From: Acidobacteriota bacterium
Lineage (GTDB): Bacteria > Acidobacteriota > Blastocatellia > Pyrinomonadales > Pyrinomonadaceae
Length of the DNA stretch: 48,464 bases
Reading direction: 5' to 3'
Assembly: GCA_029557535.1 (NCBI GenBank)
Contig: JAKQII010000116.1
Coordinates: 1 to 48,464 of the forward strand
Shown: in pieces, positions 26,876-44,703 of the stretch
How the letters are laid out: every line of letters starts with the position of its first letter
How positions within the stretch are numbered: position 1 is the first letter of the stretch
Notes under the pieces: generated by a model
The model's input: only the letters and a program-made list of their open reading frames with translations
Told to the model about the DNA's origin: nothing
Database searches by the model: none
Translations under genes and position numbers: made by a program

Positions 26876-29800
26876 ATGAAACTGTCACCAACCGAGATCT
26901 TCGAGGGCAAGAAGATATTCTTCATTGGCGGGACCGGCTTTGTCGGCAAGGTCACGCTCTCGATGCTCCTGAACAATTTTCCGAACGTCGCGCGCGTTTA
27001 CGCGACGGTGCGCGCGCGCGATGCCAATGAATCGCAAAACCGCTTTTGGCAGAGCATCGTGACGTCGCCGACCTTCGATCCGTTGCGCGAGAAGTACGGC
27101 GACGGTTTCGAGGATTTCATCCGCGAAAAGGTCGTGCCCGTCAACGGCGACGTCGGCAACGAATATCTCGGAATGCCCAAGGACGAAGCCCGCGAGATCA
27201 TGGCGGACACCGACATCATCATCAACGGTGCCGGCAACGTCACCTTCAACCCGCCGCTCGAATCCGCACTGCGGACGAACGTCGTCGGCTCGAACAACAT
27301 CATCAAGCTCGCGAGAATGATGGACCGGCCGACGCTGGTCCACGTCTCGACCTGCTTCGTCGCAGGAAAACGCAGCGGCGCAATCTGGGAGAATGAGCCG
27401 GTCGTCGGCTACTTTCCGCGCAAGAACGAGCTTGTCGGAACCACCTTCGACGTCAACAAGGAGATAGAGGATTGCGCCCGCCTGAGCGAGCAGGCACGGC
27501 AAGAAGCGGACGACGCGATGCAGATCGCGAAGTTCCGCGAACAGGCGCGGAAACGGTTCGAAGACGAAGGCCGCGACCCGGACGACGAATCGGAACTGAA
27601 ATCGGCGATCTTTCGCGAACGCAAGATGTGGATCCGCGAACGGACGACCGAGCTCGGCGCCGAACGCGCCGAATATTGGGGCTGGACGAACATTTACACC
27701 TATTCGAAGTCGCTGGCTGAGCAGATCATCGGGAGCCAGGACGACATCGTCAAGACGCTCGTCCGTCCGTCGATCGTCGAATCGTCGCAATCGTACCCGT
27801 TCCCGGGCTGGAACGAAGGCTTCACGACGACGGCGCCGCTGATCCTGATCGCACTCCGCGGCCAGCCGATCATCCCGGTGAACGAAAAGCTCGTGCTCGA
27901 CATTATCCCGGTCGACATGGTCGCCGGCGCGATTCTCGGCGCGGCTATGAACGCGCTCATCGACGACAATCCGCCGCTTGTTTTCCAGGCGTCGTCGGGC
28001 GATTCGAATCCGAACGACATGAAGCGCATCGTCGGCCTCGTCGGTCTCTACAAGCGACAGTATTACAAAGACAAGGACACCGGAAACAAGGTTCTCAACC
28101 GCATTGGATCGATGATCGAGACGTCACCCGTGCCGCAAAAGACCTACGAGCGCTATTCGGCCCCGATGCTCAACAGACTCGCGAAACGCGCCGACAAACT
28201 GCTCGACCGCGCCGCTCCGAACTGGGCCGGCGGACGGTTTTCGAACATCGTTTCCGATCTCAAGAAATCGGTTGCGGAATTTGAGCACACGACGCAGGAG
28301 ACGATCGACGCGTTCGAGATGTTCAAGCCGTTCATGATCGACAACGCGTACGAGTACCGATCCGACAACGTTCGCGCATTGATGAACGTGGTCAAGGATC
28401 GCGAAAAGGATCTTTTGCCGTGGTACCCGGAACGAATCGATTGGTACGACTACTGGCTGAACGTCCATTTTCCGGGCATGCGGAAATGGGTGTTGCCGAC
28501 GCTCGAAGAAGAACTCAAAAAGGTTGAAAAGCGGGCGCATACGTACAAGGACCTGCTCGATCTGTTCGAAACCGCCGTCAAGCGTTTCGCGACCCGCGTC
28601 GCGATGAAGATCGAGCGCGGCGGACGCAAGGAACAGTACACTTTTGAGGACGTCAACGAACTCACGCTGCGTGCGGCCGGATTTTTGGCTCATAACGGGA
28701 TAAAGGCTGGCGATCGCGTTATTCTTTTCTCCCACAATATGCCCGAGTGGGGACTGACGTACTTCGGAATTCTGAAGACGGGCGCGACGGCGATCCCGGT
28801 CGATCCCGCAAGCTCGGTCGACGAGATCGTCAATTTCACCCGTGCCGGCGAGGCGTCCGCGATCGTGATCTCACCGAAATTGGCAAACGAGAATCCGGAG
28901 CTCGCCGAGAAGCTCCGCGACGCGGGTCTTCCGGTGAACGTCTGGACGTTCGACGAGGTCTTCGAGATGCAGACCGAGCAAGAAGAGGCGCGCCGCAACG
29001 CGCTGCTTCCGAACAAGATCATCTCGAACACGGTTGCGTCGCTCATCTTCACCTCGGGTACGACCGGCACGCCGAAGGCGGTCATGCTCTCGCACAAGAA
29101 CTTCGTGAACATGATCTCGATGCTCTCGTCGGTGCTCGAAATGGACATCAGCGACGGCGTCCTGTCGGTCCTGCCGCTGCACCACACGTTCGAGTTTTCG
29201 GCCGGATTTCTGACGCCGTTTTCAAACGGAACTCAGATAACATATCTCGACGAGCTTTCCGCGGACGAACTGTCGCGGGCGATCGAAACCGGGCACGTGA
29301 CCGGCATGGTCGGCGTACCGGCGCTTTGGGAAATGCTGCACCGGCGGATCAAGACGCGGCTGCGAGAACGCGGCGACTGGCTCGCCGACATCGCCGACAA
29401 CATCATCGAGTTCAACGCGTGGCTGCGCGACAACACTCCGTTCAACTTCGGTCCGATCGTATTTTTCCCGATCCACCAGGGAATGGGCGGCCGCATGCGG
29501 TATCTGATCTCGGGCGGATCGGCGCTGAGCGAAAAGGTTCAGAAGGACCTTCACGGGCTCGGTTTCGACGTTCTCGAAGGTTACGGCCTGACCGAGTCGT
29601 CGCCTGTCCTGACGGTCGCCCGTCCCGGCGACAAACTGCTGCGCGGAAGCGTCGGCAAACCGCTGCCGGGCGTCGAGGTGAAGATCGACAACCCGGACGA
29701 GAACGGCGTCGGCGAGGTGCTCGCGCGCGGACAGAACGTCATGCTCGGGTACTACAAGAACGAGGAAGCGACCGACGCCGTGATCCAGGACCGCTGGCTC

Positions 29801-31291
29801 CGGACGGGCGATCTCGGACGGCTCGACGATGACGGCAACCTGTTCATCGTCGGCCGATCAAAGGACGTCATCATCGACTCGAACGGCAAGAACATCTATC
29901 CGGACGAGATCGAGGATCATTACGGCAAGTCGAAGTTTGTCAAGGAGTTATCCGTTGTTGGATTGCCCGACGACGATGGCGGCGAGAAGATCGCCGCGCT
30001 CGTCGTGCCGGATTACGAATTCGACATCGCGCTGACCCGCGCGGAGACAAACAAAAAGGTTGAAGAACATTTCCGCGAAGTTTCTGCCGGTCTGCCGTTC
30101 TTCAAACGCGTCAAGGTTCTGCACTTGACGCCGTTCGAACTTCCGCGCACCGCGACCCGCAAGGTCAAGCGGCCCGAAGTCGTCGAATTGCTTCAGAATC
30201 TTGAGGCCAAGTCGAAGAACAAAACGCGGATCGAGGCCGAAGCCAAGGGCGACGACACTGCGCTCTGGATCCGAAAGATCGTCGCGACGGTCTCGAACCG
30301 TCCGTTGTCGGATGTCGCGATCGGCGATAAACTTTCCGATCTCGGGTTCGACTCGCTGATGTTCGTCGAACTTCAGGCTGCCGTCGAAGACGCCGGCGGA
30401 CGGGTTATTTCGCCGGACACCCTCAACGAGGTCCAGACGGTCCGCGAGCTTCTGACGGCGGTTCAGCGCGTCGATAAATCCAAGAAACTTGTCGATGAAC
30501 CAAAACGCGAAGACGCGAAAGACGAGATTTTCGTTCCCTCGATCGTCCGGAAGATCGGCAACGAACTGATCGATTTTGCGCAGGAACGGCTATATGACAC
30601 GGTGCTCGAGACAAAGATCGACGGCAGCGTCAATGTTCCGCTCCACACGAACTTCATCGTCGCGCCGAACCACGCTTCGCACATCGACACGGGGCTCGTG
30701 AAGAAAGCTCTCGGAAAGGATGTCGCCGAACAGACGGTGGCGGTCGCGGCGGCCGATTACTGGTTCGATACGAAGTATAAACGGGCCTACATGAACAACT
30801 TCACGACGCTCGTCCCGATCGAACGCACCGGCAGTCTGCGCCAGTCGCTGCGGCACGTCACCGACATTCTCAACCAGGGCTACAACACGCTGATCTTTCC
30901 GGAAGGCACGCGCAGTCTCGACGGCGAAATCCACGAGTTCAAGCCGATCATCGGGTATCTCGCGCTGAACGAGAAGATCGGGATCCTCCCGATGTATCTC
31001 TGGGGAACCTACGAAGCGTTTCCGAAGGGCACGACGATCCCGAAAAAGGGAAGTATCGGTGCGACGATCGGCGCGAATATCGGACGTTTTCTTGAATATG
31101 ACGAACTCGCGGCGATGACGAAAGGCGTGCCGAACACCGAGGCCTACCGGCTGATCGCGGCCCGCGTCCAGCACGAGATCGAATGCATGCGCGACGGACG
31201 CCGCGACAAGTTCGATGTCGCCGCCGTCCGTAAGAAATGGAAGGCAGAGCGCCGGAAATCGCGCAAACATGAACCCGTGATCGACGAATAG
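26876..31291 (+). CDS. elbD: ElbD-like multidomain ether-lipid enzyme (reductase-ligase-carrier-acyltransferase)
   Basis: The 1471-aa protein has four modules in order. Residues 10-400: fatty-acyl-CoA reductase-like NAD(P)-binding domain (FFIGGTGFVGKVTLS; active-site YTYSKSLAEQ near 275). About 560-1110: AMP-forming acyl ligase (LIFTSGTTGTPKAVMLSH near 724; EGYGLTESSPV; RTGDLGRLDDDG). About 1125-1190: acyl carrier domain with the phosphopantetheine serine in DLGFDSLMFVE (near 1159). About 1210-1450: PlsC-type glycerolipid acyltransferase (APNHASHIDT near 1265, IFPEGTRSLDGE near 1340). This order is that of ElbD, the myxobacterial ether-lipid enzyme, with relatives reported in subdivision-4 acidobacteria making iso-diabolic ether lipids. 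Substrates here are inferred from that similarity. Confidence 0.82.
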   Translation: MKLSPTEIFEGKKIFFIGGTGFVGKVTLSMLLNNFPNVARVYATVRARDANESQNRFWQSIVTSPTFDPLREKYGDGFEDFIREKVVPVNGDVGNEYLGMPKDEAREIMADTDIIINGAGNVTFNPPLESALRTNVVGSNNIIKLARMMDRPTLVHVSTCFVAGKRSGAIWENEPVVGYFPRKNELVGTTFDVNKEIEDCARLSEQARQEADDAMQIAKFREQARKRFEDEGRDPDDESELKSAIFRERKMWIRERTTELGAERAEYWGWTNIYTYSKSLAEQIIGSQDDIVKTLVRPSIVESSQSYPFPGWNEGFTTTAPLILIALRGQPIIPVNEKLVLDIIPVDMVAGAILGAAMNALIDDNPPLVFQASSGDSNPNDMKRIVGLVGLYKRQYYKDKDTGNKVLNRIGSMIETSPVPQKTYERYSAPMLNRLAKRADKLLDRAAPNWAGGRFSNIVSDLKKSVAEFEHTTQETIDAFEMFKPFMIDNAYEYRSDNVRALMNVVKDREKDLLPWYPERIDWYDYWLNVHFPGMRKWVLPTLEEELKKVEKRAHTYKDLLDLFETAVKRFATRVAMKIERGGRKEQYTFEDVNELTLRAAGFLAHNGIKAGDRVILFSHNMPEWGLTYFGILKTGATAIPVDPASSVDEIVNFTRAGEASAIVISPKLANENPELAEKLRDAGLPVNVWTFDEVFEMQTEQEEARRNALLPNKIISNTVASLIFTSGTTGTPKAVMLSHKNFVNMISMLSSVLEMDISDGVLSVLPLHHTFEFSAGFLTPFSNGTQITYLDELSADELSRAIETGHVTGMVGVPALWEMLHRRIKTRLRERGDWLADIADNIIEFNAWLRDNTPFNFGPIVFFPIHQGMGGRMRYLISGGSALSEKVQKDLHGLGFDVLEGYGLTESSPVLTVARPGDKLLRGSVGKPLPGVEVKIDNPDENGVGEVLARGQNVMLGYYKNEEATDAVIQDRWLRTGDLGRLDDDGNLFIVGRSKDVIIDSNGKNIYPDEIEDHYGKSKFVKELSVVGLPDDDGGEKIAALVVPDYEFDIALTRAETNKKVEEHFREVSAGLPFFKRVKVLHLTPFELPRTATRKVKRPEVVELLQNLEAKSKNKTRIEAEAKGDDTALWIRKIVATVSNRPLSDVAIGDKLSDLGFDSLMFVELQAAVEDAGGRVISPDTLNEVQTVRELLTAVQRVDKSKKLVDEPKREDAKDEIFVPSIVRKIGNELIDFAQERLYDTVLETKIDGSVNVPLHTNFIVAPNHASHIDTGLVKKALGKDVAEQTVAVAAADYWFDTKYKRAYMNNFTTLVPIERTGSLRQSLRHVTDILNQGYNTLIFPEGTRSLDGEIHEFKPIIGYLALNEKIGILPMYLWGTYEAFPKGTTIPKKGSIGATIGANIGRFLEYDELAAMTKGVPNTEAYRLIAARVQHEIECMRDGRRDKFDVAAVRKKWKAERRKSRKHEPVIDE

Positions 31292-31294
31292 GAA

Positions 31295-32332
31295 ATGGGT
31301 GGGATTTGGGAACAGCGCTGGCATCCGCTTCGCGAGGAATGGGTGATCGTGGCCGCACACCGGCAGAATCGGCCGTGGAGCGGCGAGATGTCCGAGAACG
31401 ACGTGCGCTCCGGACCTTCGTACGATCCGGGATGTTATCTCTGTCCCGGGAATCCGCGCGTCGGCGGCGTCGTAAACGATAGATACGAAAGCGTTTTCGT
31501 TTTCGACAACGATCTCCCCTGCGTCGGTTCGGACGCGCCGACCGAGATCGAACCGGCACCCGGGATCTACAGGAACCGGCCCGCGACCGGCGTTGCGCGG
31601 GTCATCTGCTACGATCCGAATCACAGCCTGACGCTGCCCGAAATGCCGGTCGGAGCCGTTGAAAAGGTCGTCGCGACCTGGCGGGCGCAGTATCGCGAGC
31701 TTGGCGCGCTGCCCGAGGTCAACCACGTCCTGATCTTCGAGAACAAAGGCGAAGCGGTAGGCGTCTCGAACCCGCATCCGCACGGTCAGATCTATGCGAC
31801 GAATTTTGTTTTCAAGACGACCGAGATCGAGGTCGGGGCGAGCGATCGTTATTTTCGCGAGACCGGCCGCGGGCTTTTCGAGGACATAATCCGGAGTGAA
31901 ATGGATGACCAAAGGCGGATCATTTTCGAGAACGCAACCGCGATCGTTTTTATGCCGTATTTTGCCCGCTACGCCTACGAGGTGTTCATCGCGCCGAAAC
32001 GCCGGGTTCCGTCGATCGACAAACTGACCGACGCCGAGTCGGCGGATCTCGCCGAAGCACTGCACGCGATGACGATCAAGTTCGACAACCTCTGGCACAT
32101 GTCGTTCCCGTACGTCATGCCGCTTCGGAACGCGCCGACCGACGGCGGCGACTACGGTTTCTATCATTTCTACATTCAATTTCTTCCGCCGCTCCGTAAG
32201 CCCAATCTTTTGAAATATTTGGCTGGACCAGAGATCGGCGGCGGCAACTTTCTTTCGGACACTTCGCCCGAGGAGAAGGCGCGCGAACTGCAATCGCTGC
32301 CGCTCGTTCACTATAAGCAGGAGGCGCGATGA
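31295..32332 (+). CDS. galT: Galactose-1-phosphate uridylyltransferase
   Basis: This Leloir enzyme exchanges UDP between UDP-glucose and galactose 1-phosphate. The 345-aa HIT-superfamily protein has the catalytic HPHGQIYA motif, the zinc-type cysteines in [10 protein letters not shown], and the C-terminal [10 protein letters not shown] strand. It begins 3 nt after the elbD-like stop, so it may be co-transcribed with it. The stop overlaps the IMPase-like start (ATGA), making it first of a tight galT-IMPase-kinase-galE set. Confidence 0.92.
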
Positions 32333-33336
32333 AGTCCGCCGGCGAGTTCCTTCCGATCCTGAAACGGCTGCACGAAGTGATCCGCGACCACGTCGTCGCC
32401 GCCTGCGAGGGATCGGCGATCGAAGCACTGTCGGACGTCGCGCGCGAAGAGGAAGGCGACACGATCTACGCCGTCGATCGTGTCAGCGAAGAACTGCTCG
32501 TCGAGTTTTTCGAGCGCGAGATCGCGCCGCTGACATCGGTTGTGCTGATCGCGGAAGGCATCGATGGCGAAATAGCTTTTCCGCGCGGGGCCTCCGTAGC
32601 GGACGCGAGATGGCGCGTCATCGTCGATCCGATCGATGGGACGCGCGGGCTGATGTACCAGAAACGGCCGGCATGGATCCTCACCGGAGTCGCGCCGAAC
32701 CGCGGGCCTTCGACAAACCTGAAAGACATCGAGGCGGCGATCCAGACCGAGATCCCGCTCGTCAAACAGCATCTTTCGGACTGCCTGTGGGCAGTTTCGG
32801 GCGGCGGTGCGACGGGAGAACGGTACAACCGGATAACGGGCGCGACATCGGAACTCCGGTTCGAGCCGTCGAGAAGCGTGTCGATCGCGCATGGTTTCGC
32901 CTCGATCGCGAGATTTTTTCCGGGAACGGGCATCGAGGCCGCCGGAGTTTACGAAGAGGTCGTCCGCGGGGCGCTCGGACCGGTACGGGAAGGGAAGGCA
33001 CAGTGCTTTGAAGACCAGTACATCTCGAGCGCCGGCCAGCTTTTCGAACTGATGTGCGGGCACGACAGGTTTGTCGCGGATCTACGCCCGGTCTTCGAAA
33101 ATGCGGTGAACGCCCGCGGCTCGAAACTCGGTATCTGCAGTCATCCATACGATCTGTGCACCGAACTGATCGCCCGCGAGGCCGGTGTGATCGTGACGAA
33201 CGTGACCGGCGGACCGCTCGACGCGCCGCTCGCCGTTGAACCCGACGTCGCCTGGATCGGCTACGCGAACAACGGAGTTCGTGCCCAGATAGAGCCGCAC
33301 CTGATCCGCGCCCTTCGGCATCGAAACCTGCTCTGA
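32329..33336 (+). CDS. Inositol monophosphatase-family phosphatase
   Basis: A 335-aa IMPase-fold protein with the metal motif [17 protein letters not shown] and an upstream acidic segment ([11 protein letters not shown]) in place of the usual EE pair. The C-terminal [19 protein letters not shown] replaces the usual WD-G-A block. Length is greater than the typical 260-280 aa, with an insertion at about 110-170. It overlaps galT (ATGA) and the kinase (TGATG). Being inside the gal operon it may act on a sugar phosphate (galactose 1-phosphate is a known substrate of some IMPases); that is inference. Confidence 0.82.
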
Positions 33337-34751
33337 TGTTCAAGATCGTCCGCAATTCCAATGTTCACGAGGCCGACGCCGGGAATTTTGCGCAAAGCCT
33401 CTGCGCATCTGGCCATCCAATCTTTTCGGGCGGCAGTCCGATCTTCGTCGCCCGCGCGCCGGGCCGGCTCGACGTCATGGGCGGGATCGCCGATTACTCG
33501 GGCTCGAACGTACTTCAGATGACGATCGCCGAGGCCGCTCTCGCGGCGGCGCAGGTTCGCGACGACGGCGTGATCGAGATCGTCTCCGAACCCGAAGGCT
33601 GGGAGTTTTCGATGCCGGCCGCTGCGTTCTACGAGGACGGATTCCCGATCAATTATCCGGCCGCGCGGTCGGTGTTCGAGTCAGATTCGAAAGATCGTTG
33701 GGCGGCGTACGTCGCGGGAACGCTACTCGTGCTCGCGCGCGAGGAAGCGCTCAACATCACTCGCGGCGTGTCGGTCCTGATTCATTCGGAGGTGCCGCAG
33801 GGCAAGGGCGTGAGTTCGTCGGCGGCGCTCGAAGCGGCCTCGATGCGGGCCGTTCTCGCGGCGTTCAGCGTCGGTCTCGAACCGAGGCGGACCGCGATCC
33901 TCTGCCAGATGGTCGAGAACCTGATCGTCGGCGCGCCGTGCGGGATCATGGACCAGATGTCGGTGATCTGCGGCCGGAAGGGCGAGTTCATGTCGATGCT
34001 GTGCCAGCCGGCGGAACTCGGCCCGCCCGTCGCGATTCCGCGTTCGATCGCGTTCTGGGGCATCGATTCGGGGATCAGGCATTCGGTCGGCGGCGGCGAT
34101 TACGGTTCGGTCCGGACCGGCGCGTTCATGGGCTACCGGATCGCCGCCGAGATTGAGGGATTCGAGATCGCTGACCGTATCATCCGTGATCCGCACTGGA
34201 ACGGCTATCTCTGCAACATAGATCCGGGTGATTTCAGAAGCCGGATCGAACCGCATTTGCCGGCCGCGATTTCGGGAGCCGACTTTTTGGAGAATTACGG
34301 ATTCATCACTGACAGCGTGACATCGGTCGATCCCGATCGCGAATACGCCGTACATCATCCGACGGCGCACCCGGTTTACGAAAACGGTCGTGTCGGCGTC
34401 TTCGCCGAACTGATCGGGGCGATGGGGAAAAGCCCGCCGGCGGATCTTCTCGGCAGGCTGATGTACGCGTCGCACGAAAGCTATTCGCGCTGCGGGCTCG
34501 GATCCGACGGAACCGACCTGCTTGTCGAACTGGTGAAGAAACGGGCGGACATGGGGCTTTTCGGAGCAAAGATCACCGGCGGCGGAAGCGGCGGGACGGT
34601 TGCGGTCCTCGGCCGCCGCGACTCTTTCGACGCGGTTCTTGATGCCGCGGGCGAGTACGCCGAGCTCACTGGGCGCGATCCGTATGTTTTCAACGGAACG
34701 TCGTCCGGCGCAGCGGAATTCGGGTTGATCGAACTCTTGCCGGAGACTTGA
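33336..34751 (+). CDS. GHMP sugar kinase, ARA1/galactokinase type
   Basis: The 471-aa kinase starts with FVARAPGRLDVMGGIADYSGSN, which resembles the C-terminal kinase half of plant L-arabinokinase (ARA1) more than the GalK signature with GEHTDYN. The aspartate of IADYSG keeps the catalytic base. The ATP loop is PQGKGVSSSAALEAAS and the third motif ITGGGSGGTVAVL. With galT and galE beside it, galactose is the likeliest substrate, with arabinose possible. Its start overlaps the IMPase-like stop by one base. Confidence 0.85.
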   Translation: MFKIVRNSNVHEADAGNFAQSLCASGHPIFSGGSPIFVARAPGRLDVMGGIADYSGSNVLQMTIAEAALAAAQVRDDGVIEIVSEPEGWEFSMPAAAFYEDGFPINYPAARSVFESDSKDRWAAYVAGTLLVLAREEALNITRGVSVLIHSEVPQGKGVSSSAALEAASMRAVLAAFSVGLEPRRTAILCQMVENLIVGAPCGIMDQMSVICGRKGEFMSMLCQPAELGPPVAIPRSIAFWGIDSGIRHSVGGGDYGSVRTGAFMGYRIAAEIEGFEIADRIIRDPHWNGYLCNIDPGDFRSRIEPHLPAAISGADFLENYGFITDSVTSVDPDREYAVHHPTAHPVYENGRVGVFAELIGAMGKSPPADLLGRLMYASHESYSRCGLGSDGTDLLVELVKKRADMGLFGAKITGGGSGGTVAVLGRRDSFDAVLDAAGEYAELTGRDPYVFNGTSSGAAEFGLIELLPET

Positions 34752-34907
34752 TCGAGGCGTCAACGCGTCAGACAGTGATCAAACCGTTCCGGAGCTATTC
34801 TTCTATTCGGTTGAAATAGGCGGATTTGAAGTCCGAGTTCGGTATAGTGCATTATCCGTGTCATCAGCGTTGGTCCGCGGCTGATGCATATTCCGGGTTA
34901 AATCATT

Positions 34908-35897
34908 ATGGCAATACTTGTTACCGGCGGGGCGGGATACATCGGCAGCGCGACTGTCGAACTGCTACGCGATCGCGGCGAATCGCCGGTTGTTTTGGAT
35001 AATCTCGTTTACGGGCATCGAGCGGCGGTACCGGCGGACGTACCGTTTTACCAAGGCGACGTCGGTGATCGGGAACTTGTGACGTCGATCGTCACAAAGC
35101 ACAAGATCGACGCCTGCATTCATTTCGCCGCCTACGCATACGTCGGCGAATCGGTCAAAGATCCCTCCAAGTACTTTGAAAACAATACATTGCGGACCAA
35201 CGAGTTGCTCAATACGCTGCGCGAATGCGGCGTCAGGCGCTTCGTGTTTTCGTCGACATGCGCGACGTACGGCGATCCGGTCCGCATCCCGATCGACGAG
35301 TCGCACCCGCAAAAACCGGTCAATCCGTACGGCTGGTCGAAGTTCATGACCGAAAGAATCCTGGAGAGTTACGACACGGCGTATGGGCTCAAATTCGTCG
35401 CACTCCGGTATTTCAACGCCGCCGGCGCGACCGAACGCTGCGGCGAGCATCATGATCCCGAAACGCATTTGATCCCGAACGTGCTGAGCGCCGCGGACGG
35501 CGAGCTGCCGTTCGTTTCGGTTTTCGGTTCCGATTACGACACTCCCGACGGCACCTGCATCCGCGACTACATACACATCGAGGATCTTGCGAACGCCCAT
35601 TTTCTGGCGCTCGAGCACCTTCGCGGAGGCGGCGATTCTGAGAAGATCAATCTCGGGAACGGCGTCGGATTTTCGGTCCTCGAAGTGATTGAAACGGCCC
35701 GCGCGGTGACAGGACGAGAGATCGAAGCGAGAATGGAGCCGCGACGTGCGGGCGATCCGCCGTTGCTGATCGCGGACGCGACGAAGGCCCGTGAGGTGCT
35801 CGGATGGGTTCCGAAACACGCCGGACTGCGTTCGATCGTCGAATCTGCCTGGAACTGGCGCCTGGAGAATCCGAACGGCTACTCCGAGGAATTGTAG
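34908..35897 (+). CDS. galE: UDP-glucose 4-epimerase
   Basis: Extended SDR of 329 aa with [20 protein letters not shown], the serine/tyrosine/lysine triad in [12 protein letters not shown] and YGWSKFMTE, and RYFNAAGA, all typical of GalE. It completes the Leloir set, 156 nt after the kinase. The gap before it holds ATCCG/ATCAG units about 9 nt apart (34854-34877), one of the short-period repeat class, and no terminator. Confidence 0.93.
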
Positions 35898-35909: not shown

Positions 35910-36225
35910 ACGCTCGCGCGACCGACACGGATTTTGCTGATTCCGCGGATTGGCGCCGATTGTTCAGATGCTGCTCAAACAAAATCGGCGAACATCCGTT
36001 GAATCCGTCTGATCCGCGTCGGGCGAAGCCGAGTCGCGAAAGTCCGTTGGAAAAGTATGAGAAACGTCGACACGCTCGCGCGACCGACACGGATTTTGCT
36101 GATTCCGCGGATTGGCGCCGATTGTTCAGATGCCGCTCAAACAAGATCGGCGAAAATCCGTTGAATCCGTCTGATCCGCGTCGGGCGAAGCCGTCGCGAG
36201 AGTCCCTTGGAAAAGTATGAGAAAC
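35910..36225 (+). repeat. Tandem duplication of about 160 nt, including a start codon
   Basis: Copy 1 (35910-36065) and copy 2 (36072-36225) are nearly identical, with a two-nt deletion and a few substitutions. Both end in GGAAAAGTATGAGAAAC. The ATG of copy 2 (36217) starts the GH92 gene; the ATG of copy 1 (36057) is a decapitated duplicate. Each copy carries 9-nt-period cores: CGGAT/CTGAT/CGGAT at 35928, 35937, 35946 and ATCCG at 35994, 36003, 36012. This fills the 319-nt gap after galE. Confidence 0.8.
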
Positions 36226-38517
36226 CTGCTCGCATCGATCGTCCTGATTTCAATCGCCGCAATCGCGAATTCCCAATCGCGACCGAACTATGTTCAGTAC
36301 GTAAATCCGTTGATCGGGACGCGCAAGATGGGCCACACTTACCCGGGCGCGACGGTGCCGTTCGGATCGGTCCAGCTTTCGCCGGATACCGACGAAGAGC
36401 CGTTCCTGATCGGCGGAAAATACAACAAGGAAACTTACCGATACTGCGCCGGTTATCAGTTTGACGACCCGACGATCGTCGGATTCTCGCACACTCATTT
36501 TTCAGGAACCGGACATTCCGACCTCGGTGACATCCTGATCATGCCGACCCAAGGCGTTCTGCAGCTCGAGCCGGGAAGCGCCGACGATCCGAAGTCCGGT
36601 TTTCGCTCGGCATTCTCGCACGGGAACGAGCGTGCCGAAGCAGACTATTACCGGGTCAAGCTCGAGGATGACGACATTCTCGCTGAAATGACGGCGACAA
36701 CGCGCGTCGGTTTTCACCGCTACACGTTCAATCGCACAGGGCCGCGCCACATCGTTCTCGACCTCAAGCACGGGATATACGATTACGACGGCAAGAACGT
36801 CAGGACGTTCGTCCGCGTCGAGAACGACCGTACGATCACCGGATTTCGCGAGACGACCGGCTGGGCGCGGACGCGCACGGTCTACTTCGCGCTCCAGTTC
36901 TCAAAGCCATTCGAATCATACGGTTACAAGGACTTTGATCCGTCGCCGTACCGCGGATTCTGGCGCAAGTTCGACCAGTCGAAGAACTTCCCGGAAATGA
37001 TCGGAAAGCAGGTCCGTGCGTACTTCGACTTCGACTCGGGCAACAAAGATCCGATCGAAGTCAAGGTCGCGTTGTCGCCGGTCTCCACCGCGGGAGCGCT
37101 CGCGAACATCAAAAGTGAGGCGCCGGGATGGGATTTCGAAGCGATAAAGCGTGCCGGACAGAAGGCATGGAACGACGAACTTGGGAAGATCGACGCGAAG
37201 ATCGACGATCCGAACGAAATGGTGAATTTCTATACCGCGATGTACCACGCGTTCCTTTCGCCGACCGTTTACATGGACGCTGACGGGCAATACAAGGGTC
37301 TCGATCAGAACAATCACAGGGCCGCCGGATTTACCAATTACACGACGTTCTCGCTGTGGGACACCTACCGCGCGCTCCATCCGTTCTTCAACATCGTTCA
37401 ACCGCGGCGCAACCGTGACATGATCCGTTCGATGATTGGGCATTACGATCAGAGCGTCCACAAAATGCTGCCCGTCTGGTCGCATTACGCGAACGAGAAC
37501 TGGTGCATGATCGGTTACCATTCGGTCTCGGTCGTCTCCGACGCGATCGTCAGCGGCAATCTCACGGGGCCGGAAGCGAACAAGGCGCTCGACGCGATGG
37601 CGCAAACCGCGCGGACAAAGTATTACGACGGTCTCGGCGACTACATGCGGATCGGCTACGTGCCGGTCGAGAACAATGGTTCGTCCGTTTCGAAGACGCT
37701 CGAATATGCGTATGACGACTACGCGATCGCGCAGGCGGCGAAAAAGCTCGGACGCAAGGACGTCGCCGATGAATTCGCCAAGCGCGCCGGAAACTGGCGG
37801 AACGTTTTCGATCCGTCTACCGGATTCATGCGGCCGAAAAGCGCGGACGGAAAATTCCTTGCCGAGTTCGATCCGATGAAAACCGAAGGTCAGGGTTTCA
37901 TCGAAGGCAACTCATGGAACTACAGTCTCTACGTCCCTCATGATCCGGCGGCGATGATCAAAATGATGGGCGGAAAATCGAAGTTCGCGGCGCATCTCGA
38001 CGAGCTTTTCAACATGCACCTTCCGGATGAATTTTTCGCCGAAACCGAGGACATCACGCGCGAGGGAATCATCGGCGGGTACGTTCACGGGAACGAGCCG
38101 TCGCACCACGTCGCGTATCTTTACAACTGGACGGACGCGCCGTGGAAAACGCAGGAGCGTGTCCGGATGATCTTGAAACATCAATACAAGGCGGCGCCGG
38201 ACGGTCTTGGCGGAAACGACGATTGCGGCCAGATGTCGGCGTGGTACTTGTTCACGGCGCTCGGATTTTATCCGGTCGCGCCGGGTTCGGGCGAGTATCA
38301 GCTCGGAAGCCCTGCGGTCAGCTCGGCGGTGATCCGATTGGAGAACGGGCGAACGCTGCGGATCGAGGCGGTAAATCAAAGCGATAAAAATGTTTACGTC
38401 GATCGCGTCGAGCTGAACGGCAAGCGCGTCGGCCGTACGTTCATTACCTATCCGGAGATCGCCGGCGGCGGGACGCTGAAGTTCTTTATGAGTTCGGCAG
38501 TAGACGGTAGACAATAG
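36217..38517 (+). CDS. Exported GH92 alpha-mannosidase
   Basis: The enzyme trims exo alpha-linked mannose (often alpha-1,2) from glycans, with a calcium ion and inversion. The 766-aa protein has a signal peptide (residues 1-19, ending NSQS), the N-terminal YVNPLIGTRKMGHTYPGATV, and the GH92 catalytic blocks GGYVHGNEPSHHVAYLYNW (acid Glu) and LGGNDDCGQMSAWYLFTALG (general base Asp pair). Length is normal. The 3' end runs into a 7-nt array that encodes the last residues (VDGRQ). The next gene is a GH47 mannosidase, so the pair likely degrades high-mannose glycans in the periplasm or medium. Confidence 0.93.
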   Translation: MRNLLASIVLISIAAIANSQSRPNYVQYVNPLIGTRKMGHTYPGATVPFGSVQLSPDTDEEPFLIGGKYNKETYRYCAGYQFDDPTIVGFSHTHFSGTGHSDLGDILIMPTQGVLQLEPGSADDPKSGFRSAFSHGNERAEADYYRVKLEDDDILAEMTATTRVGFHRYTFNRTGPRHIVLDLKHGIYDYDGKNVRTFVRVENDRTITGFRETTGWARTRTVYFALQFSKPFESYGYKDFDPSPYRGFWRKFDQSKNFPEMIGKQVRAYFDFDSGNKDPIEVKVALSPVSTAGALANIKSEAPGWDFEAIKRAGQKAWNDELGKIDAKIDDPNEMVNFYTAMYHAFLSPTVYMDADGQYKGLDQNNHRAAGFTNYTTFSLWDTYRALHPFFNIVQPRRNRDMIRSMIGHYDQSVHKMLPVWSHYANENWCMIGYHSVSVVSDAIVSGNLTGPEANKALDAMAQTARTKYYDGLGDYMRIGYVPVENNGSSVSKTLEYAYDDYAIAQAAKKLGRKDVADEFAKRAGNWRNVFDPSTGFMRPKSADGKFLAEFDPMKTEGQGFIEGNSWNYSLYVPHDPAAMIKMMGGKSKFAAHLDELFNMHLPDEFFAETEDITREGIIGGYVHGNEPSHHVAYLYNWTDAPWKTQERVRMILKHQYKAAPDGLGGNDDCGQMSAWYLFTALGFYPVAPGSGEYQLGSPAVSSAVIRLENGRTLRIEAVNQSDKNVYVDRVELNGKRVGRTFITYPEIAGGGTLKFFMSSAVDGRQ

Positions 38518-38534
38518 ACGGTAGACGGTACGGT
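38500..38534 (+). repeat. 7-nt repeat array, GTAGACG family, over the GH92 stop
   Basis: GTAGACG, GTAGACA, ATAGACG, GTAGACG and a decayed GTACGGT. The GH92 stop TAG (38515-38517) is inside the third unit. A single inverted unit CCGTCTA lies at 38555-38561. Confidence 0.68.
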
Positions 38535-38609
38535 CAAGAGCTGAAAACGGCGGGCCGTCTATGTGACCTCTGTGCCTATGTGGTGGGTTAAGGTAAGCAA
38601 TCAGTGAAT

Positions 38610-39962
38610 ATGAAAACAATCGTTCGTATCGTAGTCGTCACTATCTTTGCAGTTGCGTCGCAGGCGCAGCCGGGCGCGAAGATCGACCGCGCAAAAATGG
38701 CCGCCGAGGTCAAAGCCGAGTTTCTGCACGCCTGGAACGGCTACAAAAAGTACGCCTGGGGACACGACGATCTCAAGCCGATCTCGAAGTCATATCGCGA
38801 CTGGCACCCGCCCGAGACGGTTCTGATGACGGCCGTGGACTCGCTCGATTCGCTTTACCTTCTCGGCTTTAAGAAAGAGGCGGACGCCACGCGCAAGTAC
38901 ATCACCGCCAATCTGTCGTTCGACAAGGACATCGACGTTCAGAACTTCGAGATCACGATCCGCGTTCTCGGAGGTCTGATTTCCGGCTATCAGGCGTCGG
39001 GCGACAAGAAGCTGCTCGCGCTTGCCGACGATCTCGGCCGGCGATTGCTGCCCGTTTTCGATTCCCCGACCGGAATGCCGTACCGCTACGTCAATCTCAA
39101 GACGGGAAAGACGCGCGGCGAGATCTCGAACCCGGCCGAGACCGGAACGCTTCTGATCGAGTTCGGTGCGCTCTCGAAGCTCACGGAAAAGACCGTCTAT
39201 TATGAAAAAGCGAAGCGCGCGCTTGTCGAGACGTTCAATCGGCGCTCGAAGATCGGACTCGTCGGCCAGAACATCAACGTCGAGACCGGCGAATGGACGA
39301 ACACCGACAGCCACGTCAGCGGTGCGATCGACTCGTACTACGAATATCTTCTGAAATGCGCGATCCTCTTCGCCGACGCCGACTGCCGGAAGATGTGGGA
39401 AGAATCGATCGGACCGGTCAACAAATACCTCGCCGACGAGGTCAACGGCGAACTTTGGTACGGACACGCCGATATGAACACCGGCAAGCGCGGCGCGCGG
39501 ACCTTCGGCGCGCTCGACGCATTTTTCCCGGCGGTGCTCGCGCTCGGCGGAGATCTCGACCGCGCGAAACGGCTGCAGGATTCGGCCTTCAAGATGTGGA
39601 ATAAACACGGGATCGAGCCTGAAGAGTTCGACTATATAAAGGGCGAGGTCACCGACGGCGGTTATCCGCTGCGTCCCGAGATCATTGAGTCGACATACTA
39701 TCTGCTCAAATACACCGACGACGAGAAATACGCCGCGATGGGCATGACGATGTTCGACGATTTCAGGAAGTATTGCCGGACGGACGTCGCGTACGCCGGA
39801 ATCAAAGACGTTCGGACGATGGAAAAGACCGACTACATGCACAGCTTCGCGCTGGCCGAAACGCTCAAATACTTTTACCTGATCTTCGCGCCGCCGCAGA
39901 CGATCGATCTGAAAACAACGGTCTTCAACACCGAGGCGCATCCGATCAGGAAGCAGTGGTGA
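38610..39962 (+). CDS. Exported GH47 class I alpha-1,2-mannosidase
   Basis: ATG 38610 is preferred to GTG 38604. Residues 1-20 are a signal peptide ending SQAQ. The rest is the (alpha/alpha)7 barrel of GH47: EFLHAWNGYKKYAWGHDDL, DSLDSLYLLGFKKE, the acidic loop TNTDSHVSGAIDSYYEYL, YPLRPEIIESTYYLLKY, and the C-terminal calcium threonine in VFNTEAHPI. GH47 is the ER/Golgi mannosidase family of eukaryotes and is uncommon in bacteria. It is paired with GH92. Both would cut alpha-1,2-mannose. Confidence 0.93.
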   Translation: MKTIVRIVVVTIFAVASQAQPGAKIDRAKMAAEVKAEFLHAWNGYKKYAWGHDDLKPISKSYRDWHPPETVLMTAVDSLDSLYLLGFKKEADATRKYITANLSFDKDIDVQNFEITIRVLGGLISGYQASGDKKLLALADDLGRRLLPVFDSPTGMPYRYVNLKTGKTRGEISNPAETGTLLIEFGALSKLTEKTVYYEKAKRALVETFNRRSKIGLVGQNINVETGEWTNTDSHVSGAIDSYYEYLLKCAILFADADCRKMWEESIGPVNKYLADEVNGELWYGHADMNTGKRGARTFGALDAFFPAVLALGGDLDRAKRLQDSAFKMWNKHGIEPEEFDYIKGEVTDGGYPLRPEIIESTYYLLKYTDDEKYAAMGMTMFDDFRKYCRTDVAYAGIKDVRTMEKTDYMHSFALAETLKYFYLIFAPPQTIDLKTTVFNTEAHPIRKQW

Positions 39963-39979
39963 GCGGCGAGCTGTCAGTA
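39959..39979 (+). repeat. 7-nt repeat, GTGAGCG family, over the GH47 stop
   Basis: GTGAGCG, GCGAGCT, GTCAGTA; the GH47 stop TGA (39960-39962) is inside the first unit. The same GTGAGCG unit dominates the array at 42954. Confidence 0.45.
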
Positions 39980-39999
39980 CCGCCTGCGTCAGCGGGCGG
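39980..39999. other. Strong hairpin after GH47
   Basis: CCGCCTGC and GCGGGCGG (one G-U pair) form an 8-bp stem around GTCA. No T-tract follows, so it is not a standard terminator. It may aid mRNA 3'-end stability or be a repeat element. Downstream to 40134 I see only weak short-period sequence. Confidence 0.55.
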
Positions 40000-40134
40000 A
40001 CACCCAAGCGCTTCAGAGCCCGATTCGAACAGTACGATCTCACGCAAAGCCCGCAGAGATCGCCAGGGATGAAAACCAATTCGGCGCGATTTGCGTAAAA
40101 TGACCGAGAATCTGAATCCCATCCGGAAGATATT

Positions 40135-42957
40135 ATGAAATCAATCAAAATCTATTTCGTGGCACTGTGCGCGTTGATCGCGGTCGTTTCGGCTCCGGCG
40201 CAGAAGACGACATCGCAGCCGACGTTCAAGGTCCCGTTCGAAAAGTTTAACTTGCCGAACGGTCTTGAAGTGATCTTCCACATCGACCGGTCGGATCCGG
40301 TCGTCGCAGTCGCCTTGACGGCGCACGTCGGATCGGCCCGCGAAAAAGTCGGGCGGACCGGATTCGCGCACCTTTTCGAACATCTCTTGTTCCTCGAATC
40401 CGAGAATCTCGGCAAAGGCGGGCTCGACAAACTGTCCGCGCGTGTCGGCGGTTCGGGAGCAAACGGTTCGACGTCGCACGACCGGACGAACTACTTCCAG
40501 ACCGTTCCGAACGATGCGCTCGAGAAGATGCTCTGGGCCGAGGCCGACAAACTCGGCTGGTTCATCAACACGGTCACTGATCCGGTGCTGGCGAAAGAGA
40601 AACAGGTCGTCAAGAACGAGAAGCGCCAAAGCTACGATAATGCGCCGTACGGCCAGACTTCATACGTCATCGACCGCGCGCTTTATCCGGCCGATCATCC
40701 TTATCACTGGCAGGTCATCGGTTCGCTCGAAGATCTTCAGAACGCGACCCTTGCCGACGTCAAGGAGTTTTACCGGCGATGGTACGTACCGAACAACGTC
40801 ACGTTGACGGTCGCCGGCGATTTCGATCCCGTGCAGGCGAAAAAGTGGGTCGAAAAGTACTTTGGCGAGATCAAGCGCGGACCCGACGTCGAGCCGATGG
40901 CAAAGCGACCCGGAGTCGTCAAAGAAACTCAGAAGTATTTTCACGAGGACAACTTTGCGCGCGTCCCCGAACTGACATACACGTGGCCCGCGGTCGAGCA
41001 GTTCAATCCTGATTCTTACGCGCTCGAAATCCTTGCCCAGTATCTTTCGGAAGGGAAACGCGCGCCGTTCTACAAGGTTCTTGTCGAAAGCAAGAAGCTT
41101 GCGCCGAATGTGCGGATGCGGAACGACACATCGGAGCTTGCGGGCCAGTTCGAGATCTCGGTCCGCGCGTTTGACGGCGTAGATCTTGACAACGTCGCCG
41201 CGGCGATGAACGAGGCGTTCGCGATGTTCGAGAAGGACGGGATTTCCGAAAAGGATCTGAACCGGATCAAGGCCGGCCAGGAAACACAGTTCTACAGCGG
41301 CCTTTCGAGCGTGCTTGGGAAAGGATTCCAGCTCGCTCAATACAACATCTTCGCGGCCGATCCCGGGTTTGTTGAAAAGGACATCAAGAACATCCTCGCG
41401 GTGACGCCCGCGGACGTGACGCGCGTGTACGAGAAGTACATCAAGGGACGCAACTACATCGCGACGAGCTTCGTGCCGAAGGGAAAGTGGGATCTCGCGC
41501 TGGAAGGCTCCAAGAAGGCTGAGATCGTCGAGGAAAAGATCGTTCAGGGGGCCGACGAAGAGGTCGATCCGAACGTCAACGCGAAGTATGAGCGCACGCC
41601 GTCGTCGTTCGACCGAACCGTCGAACCGCCCTATGGAGCGGCGCCGAAAGTTGCGGTTCCGGCCGTTTGGCAGAACAGACTCGCGAACGGGATGCGGGTT
41701 TTCGGGATCGAATCAAACGAAGTCCCGCTCGTTACGTTTGAACTTTCGATCGACGGCGGGCAACTTCTTGACGATCCGAACAAGGTCGGCGTCGCAAATA
41801 TGCTCGCGCGGATGATGACGCAGGGGACAAAGAACCGGACGCCGGAAGAACTCGAGGAAGCGATCGCTCAGCTTGGGGCGTCGATCAACGTCAGCGCCGG
41901 CACCGACGAGATCCAGATCCGCGGAACGACGCTCGCAAAGAATTACGATGCGACGCTCGCGCTCGTCGGAGAGATCCTGCTTGAGCCACGGTGGGACGCG
42001 AAGGAGTTCGATCTCGTCAAGAAGAGCGTCGTCAACCAGATTCGCCAGCAGGCGGCGAACCCGAACGCGATCGCGGCGAATGAGTTCAGCGTTTTGATCT
42101 ACGGCAAGGACAATATCCGATCGCGGAACATTCTCGGGACGCCGGAGTCGGTCGCCGCGATCACGCTCGACGATCTAAAGTCGTTCTACGCGAAGAATTT
42201 GTCGCCTTCGGTCGCACGGATGCACATCGTCGGCGGAATCAGCAAGACGGCGACAATGAAGTCGCTCGGAAACCTCGCGAAACGATGGCCCGCGATGAAA
42301 GTGACGATTCCCGAGTATCCGACTCCGAAGCCGCCCGATTCGTCGAAGGTTTACTTCTACGACGTTCCCGACGCGAAACAGTCGGTTCTGCGATTCGGAT
42401 ATCCGGCGTTGGCGATCACCGATCCGGATTTCTATCCGGCGACCGCGATGAACTACATTCTCGGCGGCGGCGGATTTGCGTCGCAACTGACACAGCAGTT
42501 GCGCGAAGGAAAGGGCTATACGTACGGCATAAGTTCCGGCTTCATCGGGTCGACGGCACCGGGGCCGTTCATAATCGCGAGCGGCGTCCGGAGCAATGTC
42601 ACGCTGGAATCGGCGCAACTCGTCAAGTCGATTCTCGAGAACTACGGACCCGGATACACCGAAGCCGATCTCGACACTACAAAGGGGTTTCTGATCAAGA
42701 GCAACGCACGCGCGTTCGAAACATCCGCGGCGAAGCTGGGTATTCTGTCCAACATCAGCAAGTTCGGCTGGCGCGCGGATTACGTGAAAGAGCGCGAGGC
42801 GGTCGTCAAAGGATTGACCGTGGCCCGCATCCGCGAGCTTTCGGCGAAATATCTCAACGCTGGTAAAATGTACTGGCTCGTCGTCGGAGATGCGAAAACG
42901 CAGTTGCCGCGACTGAAAGAACTCGGATTCGGAGAGCCGATACTTTTGAACAAGTAG
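40135..42957 (+). CDS. Exported M16 (insulinase/pitrilysin) double-domain metallopeptidase
   Basis: A 940-aa zinc peptidase with a signal peptide (residues 1-22, SAPAQ) and two M16 pairs. The N-terminal half has the inverted zinc motif HLFEH (His79, Glu82, His83) with the distal acidic ligand in the EKQVVKNEKRQSYDN helix. The second half (from about residue 505) is the inactive partner, with PGPFIIASGV and YILGGGGFASQL at its end. Two-subunit M16 enzymes degrade peptides in a clamshell chamber. This one is likely periplasmic. The stop TAG falls in the first unit of a 7-nt array. Confidence 0.93.
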   Translation: MKSIKIYFVALCALIAVVSAPAQKTTSQPTFKVPFEKFNLPNGLEVIFHIDRSDPVVAVALTAHVGSAREKVGRTGFAHLFEHLLFLESENLGKGGLDKLSARVGGSGANGSTSHDRTNYFQTVPNDALEKMLWAEADKLGWFINTVTDPVLAKEKQVVKNEKRQSYDNAPYGQTSYVIDRALYPADHPYHWQVIGSLEDLQNATLADVKEFYRRWYVPNNVTLTVAGDFDPVQAKKWVEKYFGEIKRGPDVEPMAKRPGVVKETQKYFHEDNFARVPELTYTWPAVEQFNPDSYALEILAQYLSEGKRAPFYKVLVESKKLAPNVRMRNDTSELAGQFEISVRAFDGVDLDNVAAAMNEAFAMFEKDGISEKDLNRIKAGQETQFYSGLSSVLGKGFQLAQYNIFAADPGFVEKDIKNILAVTPADVTRVYEKYIKGRNYIATSFVPKGKWDLALEGSKKAEIVEEKIVQGADEEVDPNVNAKYERTPSSFDRTVEPPYGAAPKVAVPAVWQNRLANGMRVFGIESNEVPLVTFELSIDGGQLLDDPNKVGVANMLARMMTQGTKNRTPEELEEAIAQLGASINVSAGTDEIQIRGTTLAKNYDATLALVGEILLEPRWDAKEFDLVKKSVVNQIRQQAANPNAIAANEFSVLIYGKDNIRSRNILGTPESVAAITLDDLKSFYAKNLSPSVARMHIVGGISKTATMKSLGNLAKRWPAMKVTIPEYPTPKPPDSSKVYFYDVPDAKQSVLRFGYPALAITDPDFYPATAMNYILGGGGFASQLTQQLREGKGYTYGISSGFIGSTAPGPFIIASGVRSNVTLESAQLVKSILENYGPGYTEADLDTTKGFLIKSNARAFETSAAKLGILSNISKFGWRADYVKEREAVVKGLTVARIRELSAKYLNAGKMYWLVVGDAKTQLPRLKELGFGEPILLNK

Positions 42958-43136: not shown

Positions 43137-44153
43137 ATGGCCAAGAAAATCGAAAAGAAGATACTGATCACCGGCGGAACCGGATTTCTCGGCGCGCATC
43201 TTGTTCATCAATTTATCGATGCCGGCGCGAAGAATCTTCGCGTTATGGCGTCGAGCGTTCCTGAGTGGATGACCGACGCCGGCGTCGAGCCGTTCGCGGG
43301 ATCGGTGACCAACAAAGATCATGTCGCGGCCGCGACGAAGAATTGCGAGGCGGTCTATCATCTCGCCGGCAAGGTGTCGTTTGCATACGACGGCGCCGCG
43401 CAGATGAACAAGATCCACGTGGAAGGCACGCGCATCCTCTGCGAAGCGGCCAAGGAAAATGGAGTGAAGAACTTCATCCTCGCGTCTTCAAGCGGAACGA
43501 GCGCGATCACCGACGACGGGGAAGTGACCGACGAGAATTTTCCGCAACCGCTCGAGATCCTCAGCAAGTGGCCGTATTACGCCTCGAAGTACTATCAGGA
43601 GCGGACGGCGATACACGCATTCAACGATCCCGGAGAGCGACTCGTGATCCTCAATCCGTCGCTGCTTCTTGGACCGGGCGACGAAAGGTTGAGTTCGACC
43701 AAGGTCGTTTTGGACTTCATGGCGCGCAAACTGCCGATCACGCCGTCTGGCGGACTGAATTTCGTCGACGCGCGTGACGCCGCAGATGCTTTCGTGAACG
43801 CGCTCGACAAGGGACGCCACCAGGAGCGGTATCTTCTCGGAGCGGTGAATTGGACGGTTCGTGAATTCTTCTCAAGGCTTGAACGGCTCACCGGAGTTTC
43901 GGCGCCGATGTTCAGCGTCCCGAAAAAGGTCGCGGTCGCCGGATCGAATCTTATCAATTCGTTTTACAAACAGTGGAACCGGGCCGCTCCGTTCGAGGCG
44001 TCCGAGGTCGAAATGGGCGAGTACTTTTGGTATTTCGATTCGTCAAAGGCCGTGGACGAACTCGGATTTTCCGCACGAGACCCGCAGGAAACCTTGCAGG
44101 AAACGATCAAGTACCTCCGCGAACACTTTCTCGGAGACGGAATTTTCGGTTAG
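43137..44153 (+). CDS. Extended SDR, NAD-dependent epimerase/dehydratase
   Basis: A 338-aa Rossmann enzyme with ILITGGTGFLGAHLVHQFI, VYHLAGKVSF, ILASSSGTSAI and the catalytic WPYYASKYYQER (Tyr and Lys), followed by NPSLLLGPGDERL. It resembles dihydroflavonol-4-reductase/hopanoid-HpnA-type SDRs. Substrate unknown. It is flanked by 7-nt arrays on both sides (42954-43129 and 44161-44188) and stands alone. Confidence 0.85.
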   Translation: MAKKIEKKILITGGTGFLGAHLVHQFIDAGAKNLRVMASSVPEWMTDAGVEPFAGSVTNKDHVAAATKNCEAVYHLAGKVSFAYDGAAQMNKIHVEGTRILCEAAKENGVKNFILASSSGTSAITDDGEVTDENFPQPLEILSKWPYYASKYYQERTAIHAFNDPGERLVILNPSLLLGPGDERLSSTKVVLDFMARKLPITPSGGLNFVDARDAADAFVNALDKGRHQERYLLGAVNWTVREFFSRLERLTGVSAPMFSVPKKVAVAGSNLINSFYKQWNRAAPFEASEVEMGEYFWYFDSSKAVDELGFSARDPQETLQETIKYLREHFLGDGIFG

Positions 44154-44274: not shown

Positions 44275-44703
44275 ATGGCAAATTTAGGTGAATTTGAAAA
44301 GCTGACGGTCAAGCAGAGGCAGAACAGACGATTCAGTGACGAGGTCAAGCGGAAGAAGGTAAGCGAGATCGAGCGGTGCATTACGACGGTCAGTGAGGTG
44401 AGCCGCGAATATCAGGTATCGCGGTCTGCAATATATGGCTGGATACGGCATTATTCACGGATGAGGAAGAAACAGGAACGGCTTGTGCTGGAGGGTCTGA
44501 GCGACACGCGAAAGATCAATGCGTTGAAGGAAAAGGTAAAAGAGCTGGAGCGCGTTGTCGGGCAGAAACAGTTGCAGATCGATTTCTTTGACAAGATGAT
44601 CGAGCTGGCGGAGGAGGAGTACGGCATTGACATCAAAAAAAAATGTTCCACAAAGTCCTCCGGTGGTTCTGGTCGAACCGGGAAAGGCACGGGTACAGAA
44701 TGA
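44275..44703 (+). CDS. IS3-family OrfA, helix-turn-helix part of the transposase
   Basis: 142 aa, with an HTH of the homeodomain-like type (EVSREYQVSRSAIYGWIRHY) and a leucine-zipper-like coiled coil (INALKEKVKELERVVGQKQ) that joins transposase subunits. Near its end it reads IDIKKKC over a run of nine A (44635-44643). OrfB lies in the -1 frame there, so a -1 slip would give the OrfAB transposase, as is usual in IS3. The last ~25 residues after the run (SSGGSGRTGKGTGTE) are the unshifted tail. It runs immediately ahead of the catalytic half and both lie inside the inverted repeats. Confidence 0.88.
   Translation: MANLGEFEKLTVKQRQNRRFSDEVKRKKVSEIERCITTVSEVSREYQVSRSAIYGWIRHYSRMRKKQERLVLEGLSDTRKINALKEKVKELERVVGQKQLQIDFFDKMIELAEEEYGIDIKKKCSTKSSGGSGRTGKGTGTE

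Follow-up and report, generated by a model that had tools for sequence, protein, structure and literature searches.

The window analysed here, the whole stretch of 48,464 nucleotides of contig JAKQII010000116.1 (assembly GCA_029557535.1), comes from a bacterium of the family Pyrinomonadaceae (Acidobacteriota, Blastocatellia, Pyrinomonadales) and carries a gene for a large multidomain protein, which, judging by its sequence, is quite probably elbD of the elb (ether lipid biosynthesis) system. The earlier note on this DNA had claimed that a reductase, an acyl ligase, a carrier and a PlsC acyltransferase follow one another in the order of ElbD, and Pfam did recover all of them within one frame of 1471 aa (Table 1). 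Two stretches of the N-terminal 560 aa were aligned with the solved fatty acyl-CoA reductase 7eoz (E 4.2e-52), and the C-terminal part with the solved PlsC 5kym (E 4.9e-16). The frame is kept in relatives at 51-88% identity and is therefore not a chance open reading frame (ORF).

The motifs, which we take to be the catalytic ones, were checked by aligning 64 selected full-length homologues. Loss of the active site in the reductase or PlsC module had been named in the earlier note as a ground for refuting its proposal; the motifs of all four modules proved to be intact. The Rossmann motif GGTGFVGK is present in the window protein, and the YxxxK pair (Y274/K278) of the reductase is kept at both positions in 64/64 rows. 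All the ligase motifs (TSGTTGTPK, YGLTES and TGD) were found as well. The carrier serine S1160 is conserved in 64/64 rows, and so is each of the PlsC residues H1266, D1271, F-P-E-G 1341-1344 and R1346. The last lysine of the ligase, K1096, is K in all 56 rows of the elb clade (see below) and is generally lost in the eight rows of the sponge-type ElbDs. One more protein of the same genome, of 934 aa (contig C26, L254:2907-5711), combines a ligase (ACS), a carrier (ACP) and PlsC and resembles the ElbD homologues lacking the fatty acyl reductase (FAR) that occur in the literature; having no FAR, it was set aside as a candidate ElbD.

The ElbD tree was a quick IQ-TREE reconstruction (LG+G4, SH-aLRT support only, some long branches flagged) of 64 chosen full-length sequences and not of all homologues; L120, whose elbD is frameshifted in the assembly, was left out. 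The window protein lies in the clade of its own family (f1), which is grouped with the copies from f7 and f26 at SH-aLRT 100, and the f1/f7/f26 clade adjoins, again at SH-aLRT 100, three Myxococcota and one Pseudomonadota metagenome-assembled genome (MAG) inside the elb clade. The phylogenetic check that the earlier note had called for thus places the window protein with the elb-operon ElbDs of Myxococcota. The tree bears also on another assignment, according to which the protein would belong to the sponge-type ElbDs, that is, to the family resembling nonribosomal peptide synthetases which passages of PMC9426513 describe in clusters of sponge-symbiotic Acidobacteriota and Poribacteria and which occurs in other acidobacterial classes. 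These proteins have the same four domains in the identical order and do exist in the phylum; however, the sponge-type acidobacterial, poribacterial and Phycisphaerae ElbDs are split from the elb clade at SH-aLRT 100, and the window protein shares 31-34% identity with those acidobacterial proteins vs 46-49% with the nearest Myxococcota copies. Besides, one such cluster contains, by Pfam, a zinc alcohol dehydrogenase gene and a diacylglycerol kinase (DAGK) gene, and elbE is present in none of six such loci (0/6). We consider this assignment hardly credible and retain the elb one.

Within the family, where an orthologue was required to share at least 55% identity, ElbD is present in 56 of the 60 genomes, in 42 of them as one full-length frame; most of the others are broken at contig ends. 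Screening of the phylum (one draw of 297 genomes, E <= 1e-150) gave ElbD matches in 33 genomes, 19 of which belong to the window's family, one to f7 (53% identity to the window copy), one to f26 (51%) and 12 to distant lineages (31-34%). Of the 13 listed genomes that represent other families of the window's class, 12 gave no ElbD match, the exception being f7. The ElbD of a Blastocatellia MAG (L124/G348) is 82% identical and falls inside the family clade of the tree, and this puts the window in Blastocatellia (subdivision 4). In a distant ElbD cluster from another acidobacterial family (L252:3833-12621), a DAGK-type kinase gene lies upstream of elbD; an ElbB-like gene, a zinc alcohol dehydrogenase gene and elbC come downstream of it, and there is no elbE.

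The sequence around elbD, up to 20 kb wherever the contig was long enough, was searched with the genes of the window and with elbB and elbC of its own genome; a neighbour was counted if it shared the strand of elbD and lay no more than 8 kb away from it, and L085, a 30% paralogue, was left out of the counts. Among 31 family genomes elbC is located upstream of elbD in 29 and elbB in 25, and elbE is located downstream in 26. Many of the missing neighbours coincide with contig ends: in both cases where elbC was missed (L061 and L090) the contig extends for less than 1.8 kb on the upstream side. Two loci (L067 and L068) have 7 kb downstream of elbD and no elbE there. The f7 and f26 loci (2/2) show the gene order B-C-D-E. 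In the Myxococcota set (20 genomes, largely Myxococcota but including a Bradymonadaceae and a Deltaproteobacteria MAG) elbB, elbC and elbE were found in 13, 14 and 19 genomes, respectively; one genome of this set is repeated in the synteny group of other bacteria, L236 being the same record as L106.

ElbD and the elb operon of Myxococcus xanthus were reportedly described by Lorenzen et al. in 2014, and elb homologues in subdivision-4 (SD4) acidobacteria are said to have been noted by Sinninghe Damste et al. in 2018. By its gene content and order, the neighbourhood of elbD in the relatives is the elb operon as in M. xanthus, where, according to passages of PMC9131029, elbB encodes a HAD protein, elbC a protein of unknown function and elbE an NAD-dependent epimerase/dehydratase. 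Common to both are the FAR-ACS-ACP-acyltransferase order in ElbD and the set of elbB (HAD), elbC, elbD and elbE (short-chain dehydrogenase/reductase, SDR). In contrast to M. xanthus, no second elbE-like gene (elbA) was found in the window or nearby, a spot check of nine loci giving one match each to the elbE query; furthermore, a separate contig holds elbB and elbC of the own genome, and Leloir and glycosidase genes come between elbD and elbE. Since homologues of the entire elb operon have already been published for several SD4 genomes, as stated in PMC10087280, this elbD joins a known type. PMC11868695 adds that only some SD4 genomes hold elb homologues and that what the proteins do was not conclusively shown. 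The subdivision and the gene set are the same as in those reports, and what is added here is this genome, its broken-up arrangement and the family-wide counts.

Table 1. Features of the elbD locus and of the related clusters discussed in the text
Feature	Position	Strand	Description
elbD	26876..31291	+	ATG frame, 1471 aa, no internal stop, FAR-ACS-ACP-PlsC protein; from ORF translation and Pfam
Fatty acyl reductase domain (NAD_binding_4)	26927..27934	+	Pfam residues 18-353, E 8.9e-53; Rossmann GGTGFVGK 18-25; Y274-x3-K278
FAR C-terminal (Sterile/FAR_C) domain	28289..28495	+	Pfam residues 472-540, E 9.1e-8, under the curated cut-off; 7eoz alignment also covers the region
Acyl ligase (AMP-binding and AMP-binding_C)	28565..30163	+	AMP-binding 564-960, E 7.1e-76; TSGTTGTPK 726-734; K1096 in motif A10
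Acyl carrier domain (PP-binding)	30266..30460	+	Pfam residues 1131-1195, E 2.8e-12; Ser1160, codon at 30353
PlsC acyltransferase domain	30614..31000	+	Pfam residues 1247-1375, E 4e-17; NHASHID 1265-1271; FPEGTRS 1341-1347
galT, inositol-monophosphatase-like gene, galK, galE	31295..35897	+	Close spacing; outside the conserved elb unit
GH92, GH47 and M16 peptidase genes	36217..42957	+	Between galE and elbE
elbE	43137..44153	+	NAD-dependent SDR/epimerase-type, 338 aa; 11.85 kb from elbD; conserved downstream partner in relatives
IS3-type transposase pair (HTH_Tnp_1, rve)	44275-45668		Starts 121 nt past elbE
ElbC (own genome, contig C280)	L083:129-1730		LarA-superfamily protein
elbB-elbC-FAR-elbE clusters	L248:5847-10871, L249:5525-10773, L250:672-5773		

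The linkage of elbD to elbB, elbC and elbE is seen in the relatives, and the genome that harbors the window holds all four genes, though not adjacent to each other: elbC and elbB lie together on a separate 4.4-kb contig (C280), elbC being about 130 nt from its end, and elbD and elbE are the ends of a nine-gene run on the plus strand. The galT gene (Pfam GalP_UDP_transf) does start 3 nt past the stop codon of elbD, at 31295, just as the earlier note had it, and this closeness, together with the uninterrupted run of genes to elbE, would suit a functional operon, in which elbD works with the Leloir genes, for instance, in the synthesis of an ether glycolipid with a sugar provided by GalT, GalK and GalE. 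However, the joint transcript hinted at on this ground does not correspond to any conserved linkage: galT, galK and galE are within 8 kb of elbD in none of the 31 family relatives (0/31), and in the same genus (4 genomes) only G050, besides the own genome, has a close galT (67%), which resides on contig C136, elbD being on C27; the others have homologues of 41-43%. Moreover, close spacing can mean co-transcription without a common function. Leloir coupling was thus rejected on synteny, and we regard a functional partnership of this kind as very improbable. The adjacency of galT and elbD looks rather like a lineage-specific rearrangement, because the relatives have no gal genes near elbD and because elbE is parted from elbD here. 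As to the other genes of the run, GH47 and M16 genes also occur downstream of elbD in relatives (10/31 each), in several close ones between elbD and elbE, and therefore the Leloir block and the GH92 gene look like newcomers. The IS3-type transposase pair past elbE is a possible agent of the elb rearrangement. The GH92 and GH47 glycosidase genes adjoin one another (36217-39962 of the window).

The chemistry, substrate and product of the elb system in this organism we infer by analogy. The ligase domain would adenylate a fatty acid, probably iso-C15, and load it onto ElbD's own carrier domain, the reductase domain would convert the thioester to an aldehyde or alcohol, and the PlsC domain would transfer an acyl chain onto glycerol-phosphate or an acceptor resembling dihydroxyacetone phosphate (DHAP); ElbE (SDR), ElbC (LarA-like) and ElbB (HAD phosphatase) would then finish the conversion to an alkyl-ether glycerolipid. 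The mammalian ether-lipid route proceeds via FAR1, GNPAT and AGPS (alkyl-DHAP synthase), followed by a ketone reductase. By analogy with it, ElbD may account for activation, reduction and acyl transfer, ElbE may act as the reductase and ElbB as the phosphatase. FAR and DHAP/glycerol-phosphate acyltransferase chemistry is matched in ElbD by domain; no AGPS was recognised among the two FAD-oxidase_C proteins of the own genome. Both of them score best at GlcD-type NCBIfam models, and one, compared with solved structures, scores far higher with lactate/glycolate-type dehydrogenases than with AGPS, so that they were rejected as AGPS candidates and look like glycolate/lactate-type dehydrogenases. 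The ether-forming step is therefore left without an assigned enzyme. The PlsA/Ger ester-to-ether reductases of Clostridium and Thermotoga, which also give bacterial ether lipids, are unrelated to ElbD; no match to PF09989 (DUF2229) was found in the own genome, which is 98% complete, and the control with this model gave matches in 4 of the 14 genomes, one of them that of Thermotoga maritima.

According to passages of PMC9131029, disruption of elbD strongly lowers the ether lipids of M. xanthus, and disruption of elbE lowers them as well. In the SD4 isolate Pyrinomonas methylaliphatogenes, membrane-spanning and ether lipids account for some 40% of the lipids or more, according to PMC4644332. A link of the window's elbD to iso-diabolic or other ether lipids in this organism is plausible. 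Several points weigh against the elb reading. Ether-lipid production by this bacterium is predicted from its genes. The four elb genes are, as described above, scattered in its genome. Four of the 60 family genomes (G003, G020, G038 and G046) have no ElbD orthologue, the matches in them being weaker and partial; completeness is under 90% in three and listed at 91% for G020. M. xanthus ElbD itself is absent from the tree, in which it is represented by Myxococcota genomes and a named MAG of Myxococcales. As to the published data, PMC9131029 states that M. xanthus ElbD was confirmed in vitro to act as a ligase and as a carrier, whereas neither reductase nor acyltransferase activity was detected, and PMC11868695 mentions Pontiella, with ElbD homologues and without detected ether lipids.

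The case of Pontiella would also be in line with another view, namely, that the products of ElbD are reduced lipids of another kind (fatty alcohols, aldehydes, or compounds of the wax- or alkyl-ester type) and not glycerol ethers, the PlsC domain acylating an unrelated alcohol. A FAR, a ligase and an acyltransferase suffice for the synthesis of fatty alcohol esters, and formation of an O-alkyl bond is not known for any of the four ElbD domains. However, orthology and gene order are shared with the operon whose disruption lowers the ether lipids of M. xanthus, and the HAD phosphatase and SDR partners, as well as DAGK-type kinases in variant clusters, point to glycerophospholipid intermediates. 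We suppose, therefore, that synthesis of such other lipids is rather unlikely, and prefer the assignment of elbD to the formation of ether lipids.

As for ElbC, the protein of the own genome scores 807.6 bits (cut-off 740) with the NCBIfam model NF052592, 'NPN-dependent hydroxyacid isomerase, LarAH14/15/16', NPN referring to the nickel-pincer nucleotide. It was aligned to solved LarA-type enzymes, with residues counted on the lactate racemase chain 8ezf_B; the ElbC alignment retained 47 of 58 loci, as the open frame was too short in the rest. ElbC residues K205, H221, H130 and D88 correspond to K184, H200, H108 and D72 of LarA, and each is present in 47/47 rows, so that the pincer (NPN-linking) lysine K205, the nickel-ligand histidine H221 and the catalytic histidine H130 are kept. 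The position of the second catalytic histidine (H174 of LarA) is occupied by Asn in 43 of the 47 rows, and that of R75 mostly by Leu. R182 was rejected as the pincer lysine, since it varies between R and K and the LarA alignment gives K205. This is the single-histidine LarA pattern, the function of which is called uncharacterised in the passages of PMC12611868. LarC (PF01969) is present in the own genome. Among the matches listed in the literature search, there was no paper that connects LarA or the nickel-pincer cofactor to ElbC or to ether lipids.

In the phylum draw, ElbC was found in 29 of the 297 genomes, together with ElbD in 25 (Fisher p 2e-25, with no correction for kinship); the eight genomes having ElbD only are all of the distant type, and four genomes have ElbC only. 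All 21 genomes with a close ElbD possess ElbC; the 12 class genomes in which ElbD is missing have no ElbC either. Three of the ElbC-only genomes (G150, G184 and G240), representing three acidobacterial families, harbor the cluster elbB-elbC-FAR-elbE with a DAGK/YegS-type kinase gene after it, the place of ElbD being filled by a stand-alone FAR of about 500 aa; in the fourth (G284) only ElbC is seen, on a 5-kb contig. In a further tree, the three stand-alone FARs fall inside the elb FAR group (enclosing fork 95, the trio 100), and no ligase or PlsC match was found in the 12-17.5 kb fetched around them, the search covering the cluster region only. These three clusters therefore suggest that the reductase, ElbB, ElbC and ElbE constitute a conserved core, and that the ligase-carrier-PlsC part can be absent from the cluster. 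The wording of the earlier note, which saw in ElbD a single-polypeptide factory, hence goes too far: what is conserved is the unit elbB-C-D-E, and the cluster of three genomes contains a stand-alone reductase. Against an essential role of ElbC, 6 of the 20 loci of the Myxococcota set contain no elbC in the fetched stretch, at least one of them having little upstream sequence.

A more far-reaching proposal, which we put forward tentatively and consider to be doubtful, is that the elb core consists of the reductase, the nickel-pincer (LarA-like) ElbC, the SDR and the HAD phosphatase, in which ElbC would use a nickel-pincer cofactor for hydride/keto chemistry on the glycerol unit and so fill the slot of AGPS, the ligase-carrier-PlsC part being an optional loading module. 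The placement of ElbC in this slot, as the only enzyme without an assigned role, is a speculation by analogy with the mammalian route.

The value of the present analysis lies in the corrected neighbourhood of elbD, in its family-wide distribution and in the observations on the modules and on ElbC. Acidobacterial ether lipids are precursors or cousins of the branched glycerol dialkyl glycerol tetraethers (brGDGTs), which are used as climate proxies. With elb being near-universal in one SD4 family, and ElbD missing in 12 of 13 class genomes from other families, a clean prediction of the presence or absence of the lipids can be made, and the finding on ElbC suggests a concrete candidate enzyme for the ether-forming step.

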